Shown here: piece after piece, positions 5,152-53,762 of the stretch
Layout of the letters: each line of letters begins with the position of its first letter
Position numbering within the stretch: position 1 is the stretch's first letter
Source of the DNA: Armatimonadaceae bacterium
GTDB lineage: Bacteria; Armatimonadota; Armatimonadia; Armatimonadales; Armatimonadaceae
Length of the DNA: 64,000 nt
Assembly (NCBI GenBank): GCA_030447685.1
Contig: JAUJOK010000011.1
Location: forward strand, 1 to 64,000
Direction: 5' to 3'
Translations under genes and position numbers: made by a program
Notes under the pieces: model-generated
Database searches by the model: none
The model's input: only the letters and a program-made list of their open reading frames with translations
Told to the model about the DNA's origin: nothing

Positions 5152-5190
5152 CCGATGGTTACTCTTTCTACTGTTTTAGGGCCTTTCGGC

Positions 5191-5353
5191 CTCTCCCCCC
5201 TGTCCCCTCTCCTAAAGGAAAGCGGGAGCTATAGACACAAGCGCGATTTGCTTCGTGCCTGCCTTTCGAATCGGGCAGAGCCATCATGCGAAGCAGAAGC
5301 TGAAATCGCAACTGGCCCCCCTTCCCTTTAGGGGAGGGGGCAGGGGGGAGAGG
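5191..5353. repeat. Palindromic repeat, CTCTCCCCCCTGTCCCCTCTCC family
   Basis: The two ends are inverted copies: the left reads CTCTCCCCCCTGTCCCCTCT and CCTAAAGGAAAG, the right CTTCCCTTTAGGGG then CAGGGGGGAGAGG. The interior of about 100 bases is not conserved between copies. Related copies are at 30918-31119 and a short one at 44284-44326. The right end overlaps the last codons of the QueD gene and appears to supply its C-terminal tail. Confidence 0.8.
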
Positions 5354-9906: not shown

Positions 9907-11045
9907 TTATCTCCGGTTTGCCCTCACCCCCAGCCCCTCTCCCACGCTGCGGGAGAGGGAGTCGGATTCGTAACGGCGATTCTTCCTCCCCTCTCCCCCA
10001 AGCTGGGAGAGGGGGCCGGGGGTGAGGGCTCTCCTGCCCCGCGCCCACACATAGCCCATTAAAGAAAACAGCGTCACCGCCTGAAGCACCAGAACCAGCA
10101 CGGACGAAACGCCCGCCAGACGCTGTATTGCCGATGATCCCGCCGTCAGTGCTCCAAAGAATAACGCCGACGGCACCACTCCGAGCGGCGACAGGTTGGC
10201 AAGCAGCGCGACGGCAATCGCCGTGTAGCCGTAGCCCGCTGAATAGTTGTCGCTCAGCAGGTAGGTTACGCCGCTGATCTGGATCGCCCCCGCCAGCCCC
10301 GAAAGCGCCCCGGAAAGCAGGAACGCAATCGCCTGCGTCCGGGCCGGGGAGATGCCCGCCGCCTCCGCCGCCTCCGGCCCCGCCCCGACCGCGCGCAGGG
10401 CGAATCCGCCTGCCGTCCATCTCAGGTAGAACCAGACGGCGGCGACCAGGAAAAGCGCCAGGAGGACACCCGCATGCAGGCGTGTGGCCGGGAGCAGCAG
10501 GACCAGACGCGCGCGGGAACGGCTATCGTATCCGACTGGGGAAAGTCGCGGGCAGCCTCCTGAAGCGGGCCGCGCACCATCCAGGCGACCATTTGCAGCG
10601 CGACGAAGTTGAGCAGAAGCGTCGAAAGCACTTCCTGAACGCCCCGGTATATCTTCAGCAGCGCGGCGATTCCCGCCCAGGCCGCGCCCGCCGCCGCGCC
10701 CGCCAGCAGCGCCAGGGGCAGATGCAGCACGGCAGCAGGAGCAAGGCGCGTTCCCGCCCACGCAGCCGCGACAGCGCCCATCAATAACTGTCCCTCCGCA
10801 CCGATGTTGAATAACCGGCAGCGGAACGCGAGCGTGACCGCCAGCCCGGTTAAGAGGAGCGGTGCGGTCTGCACCAGCGTCTCGGACAGGTTATAGGCGG
10901 ACCCGAATGCCCCCTCAGCCAGCGCCCGCGCCACCACCGGCGGCGATCCGCCCGCCACGCGCACCACCAGCGAAAGAGACGCCAGGCCCAGCGCCACGAA
11001 GAGCAGCAGCAGCGCCGCGTCACGCAGAAGGTTTCGCACGCTCAC
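9907..11045 (-). CDS. ABC transporter permease, BMP/nucleoside type (frameshifted)
   Basis: First permease of the importer. The N-terminal frame has AYNLSETLVQTAPLLLTGLA, FRCRLFNIGAEGQLLMG and GVQEVLSTLLLNFVALQMVA, all diagnostic for this permease family (YufP/NupP). Near 10525 the frame must shift by one base, after which the family pattern resumes with GAGPEAAEAAGISPARTQAI, ISGVTYLLSDNYSAGYGYTA and SALFFGALTAGSSAIQRLAG. The GTG at 11045 overlaps the ATPase 3' end and is the likely start; an ATG at 11072 is the alternative. The last 40 residues (from ALTPGPLSQ) are encoded by the palindromic repeat at 9921-10028. The single shift inside an otherwise intact gene looks like a sequence error. 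Confidence 0.85.
9921..10028. repeat. REP-like palindrome, CCCTCACCCC...GGGGTGAGGG
   Basis: Inverted ends CCCTCACCCCCAGCCCCTCT and GGGGGCCGGGGGTGAGGG bracket a paired inner set (GGGAGAGGGAG / CTCCCCTCTCCC). It belongs to the same family as 11806-11955 and 51039-51229, and a partial copy occurs near 45582-45640. Here it spans the gap between the two permease genes and forms the C-terminal codons of the upstream one. Confidence 0.85.
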
Positions 11046-12699
11046 CGCCGCCGCCGTTGCCACCGCCGCCACCCATCAGCAGGCCGATCTGTTCGCGGGG
11101 CGCAGTGGGGGCGATCACGCCGGAAAACGCGCCCTCATACATCACCGCGACCCGGTCGGATAAAGCAAGCACCTCGTCCAGTTCCGTAGACAGGAGGACG
11201 ATAGCCGCGCCCTGGTTTCGCGCTTCGCGCAGCGCCTCATGGACAAACCCCGTCGCCCCCACATCCAGCCCGCGTGTGGGATTGACCGCCACCACCACGC
11301 GCGGATTCCCGGACAGCGCGCGGGCAATAATCAGCTTCTGCTGATTACCGCCGGACAGCGCGCGGGCGGGCACCTGCGGCCCGCTTGCGCGAATATCATA
11401 GTGCCGGATAAGCTCCCCCGCACGGCGATGCAGGCGCGGCCAGAGCAGCAGCGGCCCCCGCCGGTAGTCCGGCGAATCGAACAGCCCGAGCGCCACATTT
11501 TCCGTGAGCGACAGCGGCAAAGCCAGACCCTGGCGGTGCCGGTCTGCGGGAATTACCGCAACGCCCGCCCGTCGGAACGTCGCCGCCTGGGCGCGCGGCG
11601 TTTCGCCGCCGATCCGTATCTCCCCCGCATCCGCCCGAACCAGCCCGCTCAAACAGGCGGCAAGCTCCGCCTGACCGTTGCCGTCCACGCCCGCGATACC
11701 GAAAATCTCCCCCGCCGCCACCGAAAACGTAATATCGCGCAGCCGGTCACGCCCGTTTCTGTCTTCACCCCCGGAGGGTCAGGTCCGTTACCTGGAGGAG
11801 GCTGGCCCTCACCCCCTGCCCCTCTCCCATGCTCCCGCTTCGCGGTGGGAGAAGGGTGCCTGTGGCAATGCCAACCTCTGCTCCGCGCGAAGCCGGGGTT
11901 GCTCTCGTGGCAGGCACCCCTCTCCCGCAGGGGGGAGAGGGGCAGGGGGTGAGGGTGGCGGAGACAGGAGCTTCCCGCCTACCATCGCCTCGGCCAGTCC
12001 CGCCGCGTCCGTTTCGCCGGTTGTGGTGCGGCGGACGACCTGACCCCGGCGCAGCACGGACACGCCCCCGGCCAGCGACAGCCCGTCCTGAAGCTTGAGC
12101 GAGATGAAAACGAGACCGCGTCCCTCGGCGGCGAGAGCGCGCAGCGTGGCGAAAAGCTCCGGGGTTTCGGTGGGGGACAGGACAGCCGTCGGCTCGTCGA
12201 AGATCAGGACACGCCCGGCTCCGCGCAGGGCTTTTAAAATCTCCACCCGCTGCTGTGTCCCGACCGGCAGATCACCGGCGGGCTGGCTCCAGGGGATACG
12301 CCACCCCAGCCGCTCCGCAATCGCCTGCGCCTCGGCAATCACAGCATCCACCGGGTAGGAAAGCGCACCGCCCTTGTCCGGCGATGCGCCCAGCAGCAGG
12401 TTTTCCCGCACGGAAAGGGGAGGCACGAGCAGAAAATGCTGATGCACCATGCCGATGCCCGCCGCGCTTGCATCCAAAGGCGAGCGAAACTGAACCGGCT
12501 GGCCCGCAAGCAGAATCTCACCGCTTGTCGGGCGCACCAGGCCGGACAGGATGTTCATGAGTGTGGACTTGCCCGCGCCGTTTTCGCCCAGAAGCGCGTG
12601 GATTTCGCCGGGCTGCACGTCAAAATCTACGCCGTGCAGCGCCGTAAACGCTCCGAAATGCTTGGTGATGTTCCGCGCGGCCAGCAGCGACGGCGTCAC
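11020..12699 (-). CDS. ABC transporter double ATPase, BMP/nucleoside type, interrupted by a repeat
   Basis: This is the twin-ATPase subunit of the importer. Domain 1 has Walker A GENGAGKST, a signature region LPVGTQQRVEILKAL and Walker B VLIFDEPTAVL. Domain 2 has the degenerate GVDGNGQAEL, ALSGGNQQKLIIARAL and NPTRGLDVGAT, the normal asymmetry for this family. Between the domains the linker AEAMVGGKLL is broken by a 150-base palindromic repeat whose translation ends in a stop at 11809. Past the repeat the linker resumes as LLQVTDLTLRG and, after a one-base shift near 11775, runs into DITFSVAAGEIFGIAGVDGN. Start is GTG just after the lipoprotein stop. Whether one protein or two half-proteins are made cannot be told from sequence. 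Confidence 0.85.
11806..11955. repeat. REP-like palindrome inside ABC ATPase linker
   Basis: Ends CCCTCACCCCCTGCCCCTCT and GAGGGGCAGGGGGTGAGGG are perfect inverted copies. The interior has a second inverted pair around GGGTGCCTG / CAGGCACCC and the phrase CGCGCGAAGCCGGGGTTG, which recurs in altered form in the copy at 51039-51229. The element is placed exactly between the two ATPase domains. Confidence 0.9.
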
Positions 12700-30917: not shown

Positions 30918-31119
30918 CCTCTCCCCCCTGCCCCCTCTCCTAAAGGAAAGGGGGAGCTATAGGCGATAGCATCAGTGGCTTCGATTCGGAACGTATCCGT
31001 TACTCTACGTTCCGAATGTCCGTGAAACGTCTGGGCAAAGCAGAAGAGCATAAGGTAACTGGCTCCCCCTTTCCTTTAGGAGAGGGGGGGCAAGGAGTCG
31101 GCGACGCAGTTGGGAGAGG
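30918..31119. repeat. Palindromic repeat, second copy of the 5191 family
   Basis: Left end GGACCTCTCCCCCCTGCC with CCTAAAGGAAAGGGGGAGCT, right end GGCTCCCCCTTTCCTTTAGG and finally GGGAGAGGTCC, are inverted. The interior includes a second dyad (TTCGGAACGTA / TACGTTCCGAA). It separates hddA from the dehydrogenase gene within an otherwise continuous minus-strand cluster. Confidence 0.8.
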
Positions 31120-45521: not shown

Positions 45522-45722
45522 AAGAAGCCCCCTCCGCCCCCCGCAGGCGACGCTCGCCCAATAATGGGGGAACCGGATTGGCCCTCACCCCCGTGGACAC
45601 CTTTGGTGTCCGTGCCCCCTCTCCCGAAGTTGGGGAGAGGGGGAGAAAGAGGTAGGGGCGCTGCTTGCTGCGCCCGATGCTCCGGTACCCCCATTATTGG
45701 GGGCGGAGGGGGCTTCTTTGCC
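45522..45722. repeat. Composite palindromic element with inverted termini (MITE-like)
   Basis: The ends are inverted copies: AAAGAAGCCCCCTCCGCCCC on the left and GGGGCGGAGGGGGCTTCTTT on the right. Next inside on both sides is the CCCAATAATGGGG / CCCCCATTATTGGGGG palindrome. The centre contains CCCTCACCCCCGTGGACACC and GGGGAGAGGGGGAG, related to the REP-like family at 11806. About 200 bases in all, no coding capacity. It occupies most of the gap between queE and flhA, which are divergent. Confidence 0.85.
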
Positions 45723-49474: not shown

Positions 49475-50242
49475 GTGAGTATGACGCTGCTCCACATCCT
49501 GCACACCAACGACTTCCACAACGCGTTGCGCGACCCCGGCACGGCGCGTCTGCAGGAAGCTGTCGCCGCCCTGAACGGCGCGCCATATCTCCTTCTGGAC
49601 GCCGGGGACGCCATCGGCGCGGGCAATGTCGGCGTCAACCCCTTCGGCGAACCGATTCTGGAGCGGATGAGCGACCTGGGCTATCATGCGCTGACGATGG
49701 GCAACCGCGAGTTCCATTTTTTGCAGGCCGCGCTGGAAACCAAGATAAACCGCGCCCGCTTTCCCGTCCTCTGCGCCAATGTCCACGCGCGCAGGGAGAA
49801 CGCCGCCGCCGCTCTGCCCGTGGAACCCTGGCGTCTTTTTGACATCGGCGGCAGGCGCATCATCGTCCTCGGCCTCACCGTCCCGATGATTACCCGGCGC
49901 ATGAAAGTCGCCGCCGTGTCGTCCTTCGTCTTCGATGATCCCGTGGAAACGGCGGCGCAACTGGTTCCCGAACTTCGCAAAGGCGCGGATTTGCTCATTG
50001 CCCTGACCCATATCGGATTGCGCGAGGATGAGCGCCTGGCCCGTACCGTTCCCGGCATCGACCTTATCATTGGCGGTCACTCGCACGACAAACTGGCTGA
50101 ACCGCACATCGTGGAAGGAACGCCCATCGTGCAGACCGGCTGGCACGCCCACCACTACGGCCATGTCACCGTCACCTTCGCCGACGGCCAATCTCCCCGA
50201 ATCGAAGCCGCCTTGCACCAACTCCAGGAGAAGCGCCGGTGA
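49475..50242 (+). CDS. Calcineurin-like metallophosphatase (5'-nucleotidase/UshA N-domain type)
   Basis: A 255-residue dimetal phosphoesterase domain without the C-terminal nucleotidase domain. Metal motifs are LHTNDFHNAL, LLDAGDAIGAGN, ALTHIGLREDE and IIGGHSHDKL, then GWHAHHYGHVTV. The usual GNHE motif reads GNREF, replacing the catalytic-site His by Arg. No signal peptide is visible, so it would be cytoplasmic. GTG 49475 and ATG 49481 are both possible starts, neither with a ribosome site. The stop overlaps the next gene's GTG start. Confidence 0.85.
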   Translation: MSMTLLHILHTNDFHNALRDPGTARLQEAVAALNGAPYLLLDAGDAIGAGNVGVNPFGEPILERMSDLGYHALTMGNREFHFLQAALETKINRARFPVLCANVHARRENAAAALPVEPWRLFDIGGRRIIVLGLTVPMITRRMKVAAVSSFVFDDPVETAAQLVPELRKGADLLIALTHIGLREDERLARTVPGIDLIIGGHSHDKLAEPHIVEGTPIVQTGWHAHHYGHVTVTFADGQSPRIEAALHQLQEKRR

Positions 50243-52371
50243 TTAAGACGGGGGTCAGCCTGATTCTGATACTGGTGTTTATTGGCTCGTCCATCGGTAT
50301 CGGGCGGCTGTTATTACGTTCCGTTGGCTCCTGGGCCAGTGCATTGGAGCGGGCTATCTTTTGCTGTGCGGTCGGCATGGGAGCTATCAGTTTCCTTGTT
50401 TTGCTTGTGGGCGTGCTGGGTCTTTTTCCTCCCCCTGGCTACTGGATTTTGGTACTGAGCCTGCTATCCGTTTTCGGCAGCTATACCTTTGTTACACTCT
50501 GGCGTGAGAAGCCTGCGAAGGGACGTCCGCGCTTTTCCACCTTGGAATTGTCATGTATCATTGCCTTCGCCGGGCTGGGGCTGTTTACGCTTATCGGGGC
50601 GCTGGCACCGCCGGGGGGGAACGAATGGGACGCGCTTTCGTACCACCTCGCCGTGCCTAAGATTTACCTGCGCGAAGGCCGCATCTTTTACATTCCGTGG
50701 GTCTCACACTCCAACTTCCCGTTCGTCCTCCAGATGCTCTACACGCTGATGCTTGGTCTGGGCAGCGTCGGCGCGGCCAAGCTGTGCCACTGGCTCTGTG
50801 GCGTCCTGCTGGTGCTTTCCGTCTACACCTTCGCCGCGCGCCATGTCACGCCCGCCCCGCGCGGAAAGCAGGTGGGCCTTATCGCCGCGCTGATCGTCGC
50901 CGCGACGCCTATCGTGCTGTGGGAAGCATCCGTCGCCTATGTCGATCTGGCGACCGCGCTGTTTACGTGGCTGTCTTTGTACGCCCTGTTCAATGCGGCG
51001 CAGGCGGTGGAAATAGCCCAACCTGCTCCCCCGGCCCGCCCTCACCCCCTGCCCCTCTCCCGGAGCGGGAGAGGGGTGCCTGCCACGGCAGCGGCCCCGG
51101 CTTCGCACGAGAGCAAGGAGAATTTGGCAGGGCGCGAAGCCGGGGGTGGTAACGCCACAGGCTCCCCTCTCCCACCGCGAAGCGGAAAATTGGGAGAGCA
51201 CCTCGGCAGACCGAGTGTGGGGGTGAGGGCGAAAATAGGGGCCGACTCCCTCCCCTGGCTCGTCGTTTCCGCCGTTCTCATGGGGCTGGCGCTGGGCACC
51301 AAGTACACCGTGCTTGGCTTCTGGGGAATGCTACTTGTCGGGGTGCTGGGCTGGTACTTTGTCACCACCGGGCGCTGGGCGAAGGCGACGCTGCCGCATA
51401 CCCTGCTCTGGGGCGGCGTGTCCCTTCTGGTGGCTGCGCCCTGGTATGTCAAGACCTGGGTGTATACCGGCAACCCGGTTTACCCCTTCTTTTACGGCCT
51501 GTTCGGCGGGCGCTACTGGAACGCCGCAAACGCCGCGCAGTATACTGCCGCTCAGGCGCAGTTCGGCTTCGGCAAGGGGGCGGTTAACTTTCTGCTCGCG
51601 CCCTGGCAGACCACAATGGAGGCGAGCCTTCTCACGCCGCAAAAGCCGATCCTCTTCACCGAATATGTTCTGTTCGGACTGTCGCCGGTGTATGTGGCCG
51701 TGCTGCTTGCCGCGCCGCTTTTTGTAAGACGTTTGTCACGCGTTTCCGTTCTGCTTTGCCTGTTCGCGGCGGGCGTCTTCGTGTTCTGGTTCTTCCTGAT
51801 GCAGCAGACGCGGTATCTGATACCGGCTCTGCCTGCGCTGGCGATTATTTGCGGGGAAGTGCTTGTCACGGCCTGGGAGGAACTGCGTATCGCCCGCTGG
51901 TTCGGTGCGGGCCTGGCGGCGGCATCGGTGGCATGGGGGCTGTATCTGGGCGCAGTCTACATCGCCGCGCCTGCGCTGCCGGTCGTGACGGGGCAGATGA
52001 CCACGCAGGCGCATGTCGCCCGGACGCTGCCCGGTCTCGCGTCCGCCGTCGAATTTATCAATCGGGAGACGCCGAAGGAGGCGAAGGTCGCCCTGTTCGA
52101 CGAAGTGCGCGGCTTCTATCTGGATCGCGACTATCTGTGGGCGACACCGAATCACTCCACGCTGCTGCCCTGGAACGATTATAAGAGCGTGGATGACTGG
52201 CTCAGTGACTTCCGGGGGCGCGGCTATACGACGCTGCTGGTGAACGCGCGGAACGTGTCGGCGGCGCAGGACGGCCAGACCTGGCGACGCCTATTGCCCG
52301 AGGCCATCGCTGAAAACAAGGTAACGATTGCCTTTCAAGCAGGCGACTTTGTGGTGTATCGTATACCATGA
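50239..52371 (+). CDS. Polytopic glycosyltransferase (GT39/ArnT-like) with in-frame repeat insertion
   Basis: A 710-residue membrane protein with about 11-12 transmembrane helices. The first large external loop has the acidic catalytic-type motif GGNEWDALSYHLAVPKIYLR and is followed by SNFPFVLQMLYTLMLGLG, as in GT-C enzymes that use polyprenyl-phosphate sugars. The C-terminal region is soluble (AVEFINRETPKEAKVALFDE, DYKSVDDWLSDFRGRGYTTL). Residues of about 268-330 are encoded by a palindromic repeat, in frame, between two helices. AGGAG precedes the GTG, which overlaps the upstream stop. Its partner gene follows with an ATGA overlap; together they may glycosylate an envelope polymer, possibly with the heptose made by the cluster at 29-33 kb (speculative). 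Confidence 0.85.
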   Translation: MIKTGVSLILILVFIGSSIGIGRLLLRSVGSWASALERAIFCCAVGMGAISFLVLLVGVLGLFPPPGYWILVLSLLSVFGSYTFVTLWREKPAKGRPRFSTLELSCIIAFAGLGLFTLIGALAPPGGNEWDALSYHLAVPKIYLREGRIFYIPWVSHSNFPFVLQMLYTLMLGLGSVGAAKLCHWLCGVLLVLSVYTFAARHVTPAPRGKQVGLIAALIVAATPIVLWEASVAYVDLATALFTWLSLYALFNAAQAVEIAQPAPPARPHPLPLSRSGRGVPATAAAPASHESKENLAGREAGGGNATGSPLPPRSGKLGEHLGRPSVGVRAKIGADSLPWLVVSAVLMGLALGTKYTVLGFWGMLLVGVLGWYFVTTGRWAKATLPHTLLWGGVSLLVAAPWYVKTWVYTGNPVYPFFYGLFGGRYWNAANAAQYTAAQAQFGFGKGAVNFLLAPWQTTMEASLLTPQKPILFTEYVLFGLSPVYVAVLLAAPLFVRRLSRVSVLLCLFAAGVFVFWFFLMQQTRYLIPALPALAIICGEVLVTAWEELRIARWFGAGLAAASVAWGLYLGAVYIAAPALPVVTGQMTTQAHVARTLPGLASAVEFINRETPKEAKVALFDEVRGFYLDRDYLWATPNHSTLLPWNDYKSVDDWLSDFRGRGYTTLLVNARNVSAAQDGQTWRRLLPEAIAENKVTIAFQAGDFVVYRIP
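51039..51229. repeat. REP-like palindrome inserted in frame in a glycosyltransferase gene
   Basis: Ends CCCTCACCCCCTGCCCCTCT and GTGTGGGGGTGAGGGC, with an inner inverted pair GGAGAGGGGTGCCTG / CAGGCTCCCCTCTCC. It is the longest copy of the family seen at 9921 and 11806. It translates without a stop (SRSGRGVPATAAAPASHESK and onward), adding roughly 63 residues. Confidence 0.92.
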
Positions 52372-53762
52372 GCAAAAGGCGACGACAACAGCCGGGCAAC
52401 GCCGCTCCCCAGCCGCTGCGTGTTTCCGCCAATGGGCACGGCGGCACGCCTAATAAATCGGGCATCCCCATTATTGGGGGCGGGGGGGGCGGCAGAGCGG
52501 GGGGCAGCCTTTCCCCGACTGCCGCGCGCCGCCTGCTGTTCGTCCTGCTGGCCGTGTCGCTCGTGCTGTCCCTTCTCTTTGCCGCGCGGCTTCCTCTGGA
52601 TGCCAATCCCGATGAAAAGGACCATCTGAACTATGTCCGGCTGTTGGTGGAAGAGCGCGGCTTCGTGCAGTTTCGCGTCGGCGACCCGGCGCGCTACCAG
52701 ACGCACCAGCCGCCCGCTTACTACCTGCTTGCCGCGCCCGTCTATGCCCTGACCGGCGGAAACCTGCTGGCGCTGCGGCTTATCAACATCGCGCTGCATC
52801 TGCTGACCATCACGGTCGCTTTTCGGGCGGGACGAGATCTGTTTCCCGACCGGGCCGAAATCGCCGTCGGCGCGGCGGCGTTCGTCGCCTTCCTGCCGGT
52901 GCAGGCGCAGCTTGCCGGGGCCGTGACCAATGACCCGCTGACGACGCTGATCTGCGCCGTGATCTTCTGGCGGCTCGGCCTGCTGGTCACGCAGGGGCAG
53001 GACCTGCGCGGCGCGCTGCTCTTAGGAGTTCTGTTCGGCGCGGGCCTGCTCACCAAGTTCTCCGTGCTTCAGCTTGTCCCGGCGATGCTCGCTGCCTACG
53101 CCATCGCGGCATGGGCGAAGACGCTGCCTTTTTCGCGTGCTGTCGCCCAGGCCGCCCTTGTTCTTGCGCTCGGCGTCGTTATCGCCTCGCCCTGGCTCGT
53201 CCGCAATACGCTGCTCTACGGCGACCCGCTGACGGTGCGTATCTACCGGCAGACCGGGCCGAACTTTACGCCGCAGCAGATGATGGCGCTCACCGGCTGG
53301 TCGTCCCTCGGTGAATACCTATCGAATGCGGCGACGCGCACGTATGCGACCTTCTGGTACTTTCTGCCGCCTAACGTCATCCTCCCGACCCGCTTTGCGC
53401 CATTCCCGCTGCTGCTGACCGCCGTAATGGGCTTCGGCGGACTGCTGGGCACGCTGCGCCGCATGGGACAAACGGCGGCAGACGAGACGCAGACGCGCCG
53501 GGTCCTGGCACTTTACGTGCTGGGAATCTTTCTGCTGGTGCCGTTCTTTACGATGTTCATTCTGACGACCTTTCAGGCGCAGGGGCGTTATTTTCTGCCC
53601 GCGCTCCTGCCTGCCGCCATCACCGCCTGCGCCGGGTGGGCCACACTCGTTTCGGGAACGGCTTCGACCGGGCACGCCCGCATCATCGGCGCGCTGGTAC
53701 CACCCCTGACGCTTCTGGTGATGACGCTCTACGCCCTCGGCGGCGGCGCGTTCCACCGCTGA
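52368..53762 (+). CDS. Polytopic glycosyltransferase-like membrane protein (GT-C / DUF2142-like)
   Basis: A 464-residue membrane protein. After a polar N-terminus a first helix (LLFVLLAVSLVLSLLFAARL) leads to the acidic loop LDANPDEKDHLNYVRLLVEE and YQTHQPPAYYLLAAPVYALT, typical of GT-C glycosyltransferases. Around ten helices follow. The N-terminal segment NKSGIPIIGGGGGGRAGG is the translation of the short palindrome CCCCATTATTGGGGG, inserted in frame. The ATG overlaps the previous gene's stop. The donor and acceptor are unknown; two adjacent GT-C proteins suggest protein or cell-wall glycosylation. Confidence 0.82.
   Translation: MSKRRRQQPGNAAPQPLRVSANGHGGTPNKSGIPIIGGGGGGRAGGSLSPTAARRLLFVLLAVSLVLSLLFAARLPLDANPDEKDHLNYVRLLVEERGFVQFRVGDPARYQTHQPPAYYLLAAPVYALTGGNLLALRLINIALHLLTITVAFRAGRDLFPDRAEIAVGAAAFVAFLPVQAQLAGAVTNDPLTTLICAVIFWRLGLLVTQGQDLRGALLLGVLFGAGLLTKFSVLQLVPAMLAAYAIAAWAKTLPFSRAVAQAALVLALGVVIASPWLVRNTLLYGDPLTVRIYRQTGPNFTPQQMMALTGWSSLGEYLSNAATRTYATFWYFLPPNVILPTRFAPFPLLLTAVMGFGGLLGTLRRMGQTAADETQTRRVLALYVLGIFLLVPFFTMFILTTFQAQGRYFLPALLPAAITACAGWATLVSGTASTGHARIIGALVPPLTLLVMTLYALGGGAFHR
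52465..52490. repeat. Short palindrome inserted in frame near a glycosyltransferase start
   Basis: ATCCCCATTATTGGGGGCGG, the same family as 3831 and 45690. It encodes IPIIGGGG inside the polar N-terminus, where an insertion is likely to be tolerated. Confidence 0.8.

Follow-up and report, generated by a model that had tools for sequence, protein, structure and literature searches.

The window, the whole 64,000-nucleotide stretch analysed here, is part of contig C65 of an Armatimonadaceae MAG (5.0 Mb, 116 contigs, 88% complete), the closest named relatives of which are MAGs of Armatimonadota. On its plus strand, an ORF at positions 50239–52371 encodes a GT-C fold (ArnT-like) membrane glycosyltransferase of 710 aa, which is open from end to end with no interruption and carries an insertion of a palindromic element, referred to as family 1. 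No match to the protein was found among the Pfam and NCBIfam families. An AlphaFold model built from 19 sequences reached a pTM of 0.87 and a mean pLDDT of 84, and Foldseek returned ArnT (5ezm, E 5.5e-8) as the top match to this model, with other GT-C enzymes matching too; the name of membrane glycosyltransferase given to the gene by a first-pass annotation was therefore borne out by the fold. A match to the glycosyltransferase was present in 60 of the 61 genomes searched, and the alignment of 19 glycosyltransferase proteins, the insert-bearing one included, contained 28 invariant columns.

The family-1 element occupies positions 51038–51230, corresponding to residues 267–331. It is bounded by a left terminal inverted repeat, GCCCTCACCCCC, at 51038–51049 on the plus strand and by a right terminal inverted repeat at 51219–51230 on the minus strand, which reads GGGGGTGAGGGC on the plus strand. 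Both the sequence and its predicted folding revealed three internal hairpins: hairpin 1 at 51052–51076 (CCCCTCTCCC-GGAGC-GGGAGAGGGG), a central hairpin at 51095–51145 with the arms CCCCGGCTTCGC (51095–51106) and GCGAAGCCGGGG (51134–51145), and hairpin 3 near the right end at 51164–51198 (CTCTCCC..GGGAGAG). When folded as a single strand, the element closed into an outer stem that enclosed several hairpins, at −131 kcal/mol (z = −6.4). The first-pass annotation was correct in describing a repeat with GCCCTCACCCCC...GGGGGTGAGGGC ends that recurs in the genome, while the length was found to be 193 bp rather than the 190 bp it had given.

The claim that the repeat is open in the frame of the gene, with its flanks in register, was upheld. 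Coding signal was strong both upstream and downstream of the repeat in one common frame, and the glycosyltransferase parts on either side of the insert aligned to orthologues, with the best segments being 47–69% identical. The insert lengthens the protein by about 64 residues, close to the 63 first suggested, and in the AlphaFold model it was placed between the helices 236–258 and 337–352 at a pLDDT of about 37–52; it is therefore predicted to be a disordered loop between two helices. The comparison with orthologues that had been proposed as a check showed mostly a short, variable loop at this site, in which the repeat was missing. Two of the other genomes presented their own sequence in the loop, namely a short in-frame tandem repeat, SEVTERD (L037), in G006 and a stretch with CCCTCACCCC-like sequence in G020. 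The in-frame palindromic repeat inside the glycosyltransferase gene is a confirmed observation.

The same loop was examined in the nearest relative, G003, in which the glycosyltransferase gene is split across two contig ends. Contig C464 terminates within a family-1 element in the loop, which is read in the frame ALTP rather than RPHPL and also differs in its distance to the helix. Contig C292 starts in the loop with a palindrome of a second family, family 2 (CATTATTGNGGGCGGGGGGG arms; G003:C292:7355-7472), which is open in frame. The two contigs fit both palindromes in tandem or as alternatives. These findings suggest that the glycosyltransferase loop is permissive and was hit by independent insertions in the window's own genome and in G003. 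It was also observed that G003 contigs end in these repeats.

A BLAST search with the glycosyltransferase copy gave 100 overlapping matches in its own genome, and the 22-base end pattern matched 76 times, as against 6 for the reversed control, which merged into about 60 places. Family-1 elements have inverted ends and range in size from about 50 to 270 bp. A total of 63 places were examined, in the stretches around the search matches and not in the whole-genome sequence, with gene overlaps of up to 100 bp allowed in gene calling; copies of at least 120 bp (n = 42) were classed as long. Only five of the 42 long copies lay inside genes, while 37 (88%) lay outside. Four of the five were open and in register, namely those in the glycosyltransferase, QueG (C53:66543-66708; TIGR00276, E 2e-105), Lnt (C75:92296-92472; TIGR00546, E 3e-84) and a double-ABC sugar-type ATPase (C83:345-510). 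In the fifth, at 11805–11957 of the window, where the host gene encodes an ABC ATPase and runs on the minus strand, the frame was interrupted, while the C83:345-510 region is 97% identical and open. These two ABC ATPase copies, on C65 and C83, represent a single site in two allelic forms and are not independent; two such versions, one open and one interrupted, may reflect strain variation or assembly error. The remaining copies of this genome were intergenic, as at 9920–10029 of the window, formed C-terminal extensions or adjoined a stop codon. The same-strand neighbours of extragenic copies looked like distinct genes; disrupted copies were sought only through such neighbours, and some may have been missed.

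In G003, three of the 17 usable family-1 copies were internal and all three were open, in a sugar ABC ATPase (between the two ABC domains), an alpha-2-macroglobulin and DnaX (directly past the conserved part). The distant Armatimonadota genome G022 is rich in family-1 copies, and none of 34 was found inside a gene. Beyond the glycosyltransferase, the in-frame insertions sit at loops, linkers or between domains. The QueG of G003 (73% identical) is without the element, can be aligned on both sides of the site and has a short GC-rich palindrome there. Most Lnt orthologues are likewise without an insert, and the one in G009 carries, in the corresponding loop, an insert of another low-complexity sequence.

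A frame-bias count was performed on the intragenic copies, as the first-pass annotation had advised. A random frame of a family-1 copy was open in 35% of cases (0.353; 28% for dinucleotide shuffles), which gives a chance of about 12% (0.353 × 1/3) for a copy to be both open and in register. Across its own genome and G003, seven of the eight internal copies were in this state (p = 2e-6), a proportion that is to be read as an upper view given that the custom-made gene caller is biased to open genes; stops were thus not as frequent as in random frames. At the same time, family 1 was depleted in genes (5/42 against a coding density of 0.75, p = 1e-17). The depletion, together with the excess of open, in-register copies, indicates that disruptive insertions were purged, survival being the simple reading. 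The left end of the element is read in all three frames, as RPHPL, PSPP and ALTP in different genes, and a fixed coding frame or conserved encoded peptide was therefore rejected for family 1; copies appear to survive by their frame rather than by an encoded peptide. Most of family 1 thus lies outside genes, and the few in-frame copies would be survivors that their host genes tolerate.

The flanks of 105 copies were compared for a target-site duplication, and none was apparent: direct flank matches numbered 2 at 3 bp (1.8 expected), 3 at 4 bp (0.3) and 0 at 5 bp (0.1). The flanks extended the palindrome by an inverted match in 13 of the 105 copies at 5 bp, as against 0.5 expected, and for several of these one palindrome apparently sits inside another. 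Perfect inverted flanks beyond the element ends, as if nested in larger palindromes, were seen at L085:10986-11173, L072:3053-3219 and L181:2833-3051. The genome contains four Y1_Tnp (Y1 transposase) genes, and the family-1 end motif was not found within 1.5 kb of any of the four; a REP element driven by a RAYT was rejected on this ground. The transposase search covered the Y1 type only, and no mobilising enzyme was found therein.

The exact family-1 end pattern had a patchy distribution, occurring in 67 of 291 Armatimonadota genomes with up to 119 matches in one genome. In the plasmid collection only the short end hairpin found matches, on cyanobacterial and Cupriavidus plasmids. Two further observations were made in the window, an intergenic composite at 45581–45711 in which a family-1 end lies close to a family-2 arm, and another dispersed repeat (CCTCTCCCCCCTGYCCCCTCTCCTAAAGGAAAG...) at 5190–5255 and 30918–30983, the two copies of which are 83% alike and belong to neither family 1 nor family 2.

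Family 2 is more striking than family 1. Its pattern matched 53 times in the window's own genome and 24 times in G003, and the exact pattern was present in only 5 of the 291 genomes of the phylum, four from this family and one other of the order. The minimal unit is 36 bp, equal to 12 codons (APPAPNNGGGGG / APPAPIIGGGGG), and is stop-free in five of the six frames. Among 33 distinct copies sampled from its own genome (34 rows, one duplicated), 17 were inside predicted genes and in frame, compared with 5/42 for family 1 (p = 0.0003, the samples coming from different searches). The hosts include an SDR reductase, MutS2, MutL (between domains), an ABC-F protein and Pnkp, as well as two GH38 enzymes and a GH2-like protein with two copies. 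Some other copies fell at protein termini (N or C), for which the real start or end position is uncertain. A half copy (CATTATTGGGGGCGGGGGGG) lies in the window itself at 52469–52488 on the plus strand, in frame within the N-terminal portion of the gene that follows the glycosyltransferase (52368–53762, PMT_2). A short unit whose length is a multiple of three and which has few stops would be harmless on landing in a gene. It is conceivable, although we hold this tentatively, that at least two palindrome families in this Armatimonadota family continually supply proteins with in-frame insertions, and that the one with the 36-bp minimal unit may owe its form to selection for inserting into genes without harm.

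We consider it probable, at roughly 85%, that the glycosyltransferase insert comes from a REP/MITE-type repeat, dispersed and able to form hairpins, and that this copy survived in frame and is probably translated and tolerated. Copies of such a repeat would spread through the genome, mostly coming to rest in intergenic sequence and frequently in contact with a stop codon. Survival inside a gene would need a net length that keeps the frame, a stop-free frame and a flexible loop or linker as the site. The glycosyltransferase combines all three, so the repeat is probably translated into about 64 disordered residues and tolerated. The direction of change is presumed to be the insertion of a copy that was once mobile, and its effect on the enzyme may well be neutral. 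That the insert has acquired a functional role, such as that of a docking or regulatory loop in the enzyme, is unlikely. It would agree with the intact and open state of the insert and with the loop in G003, where palindromes of two families show that such sequence is drawn to this loop or retained in it; however, the insert was modelled as disordered, the loops of other relatives are short and unrelated or hold different low-complexity repeats, and the frame of the repeat differs from gene to gene.

It is very improbable that the hairpin escapes translation through ribosomal bypass or through excision from the RNA, as a bypassed insert could carry stops and yet seven of the eight internal copies are open; the great stability of the structure (−131 kcal/mol) would favour such a bypass, for which the bypassed palindromic elements reported in a yeast mitochondrion, as discussed in PMC6649704, offer a precedent. 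The alternative that the gene was inactivated and its frame is open by chance draws on the openness of about 35% of element frames in any case, but the coding signal continues on either side of the insert, the invariant columns of the alignment are kept in this protein, and an open frame in register would be expected by chance in only about 12% of cases, so that we regard inactivation as highly doubtful. A chimeric join driven by repeats during the assembly of the MAG is the least credible: contig ends in such repeats in G003 and the ABC ATPase in two near-identical versions on two contigs would speak for it, whereas the sequences on either side of the insert belong to a single gene, share its frame and each have orthologues, and comparable insertions are seen in several genes and in a second genome that was assembled separately. 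A translated and tolerated copy of a dispersed palindrome is, therefore, the reading we retain.

The best-known case of palindromes inserted in frame is Rickettsia, with its reduced genome and intracellular life. Such insertions recur here in two Armatimonadota MAGs from the environment, each about 5 Mb in size, where they affect genes of replication, repair and the cell envelope. The presence in one genome of two families, one variable in length and mostly excluded from genes and the other a multiple of three at its minimal size and often intragenic, would allow insertion preference to be told apart from purifying selection, and the contrast between them lends itself to testing the selfish-but-translatable hypothesis put forward for Rickettsia. 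The palindromes further account for recurrent low-complexity stretches (PHPLPLS, PSPAAGEG, GVRA, APPAPNNGG) in predicted proteins of this genome and of G003, which can mislead annotation. A search of the literature, by end sequence and for Armatimonadetes palindromes, gave no account of these repeats or of the phenomenon in this lineage, in agreement with the first-pass annotation, although such a search does not prove that none exists.

Rickettsia palindromic elements (RPEs) of about 150 bp number 44 in R. conorii, where nearly half are in ORFs and are able to form translational fusions (PMC10969869). The present elements resemble them as dispersed palindromes of the order of 150 bp (about 50–270 bp for family 1, 193 bp for the glycosyltransferase copy), by frame-keeping insertion into unrelated proteins (family 1 in four genes of its own genome and three of G003) and by the occurrence of several families in one genome. 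They differ in lineage, in family 1 being without a single conserved encoded peptide, and in the share inside ORFs, which family 2 attains (17/33) and family 1 does not (5/42). The likeness to RPEs drawn at first is accordingly supported by recurrent in-frame insertion in unrelated proteins of both genomes and weakened for family 1, which is chiefly extragenic (37/42; 0/34 inside genes in G022); family 2 is the closer analogue. The analogy appears right for how the element would work, and the element itself is probably no member of an RPE family, judging by its features.

REPs of the GTAG/CGTC type are mostly intergenic, near gene 3′ ends, and are found inside genes in, e.g., Opitutus terrae and R. 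conorii, many of these genes acting in DNA synthesis and repair; their ends often supply TAG stops (PMC3733652). Family 1 is likewise mostly intergenic and near stops, and genes of DNA synthesis or repair (DnaX, MutL, MutS2 and Pnkp) hold copies of one family or the other. Family 1 differs in its GCCCTC ends, in copies that reach about 270 bp and in having no Y1 (RAYT-type) gene near its copies; at one end, element and flank together made a GTAG in only 5/43, 8/43 and 0/19 copies of three genomes, and membership was rejected given that no consistent GTAG tag marks the ends. Enterobacterial ERIC-type elements are fused in frame to genes (PMC2759123), as are small repeats with inverted ends or MITEs (PMC10969869). 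With ERIC/RU and other MITEs, the element shares the terminal inverted repeats GCCCTCACCCCC / GGGGGTGAGGGC and in-frame gene fusions, while differing in that the 105 flank pairs gave no target-site duplication and no autonomous partner was identified. The element is best filed with the intragenic REP/MITE-like palindromes, as new repeat families that represent a type of event already known.
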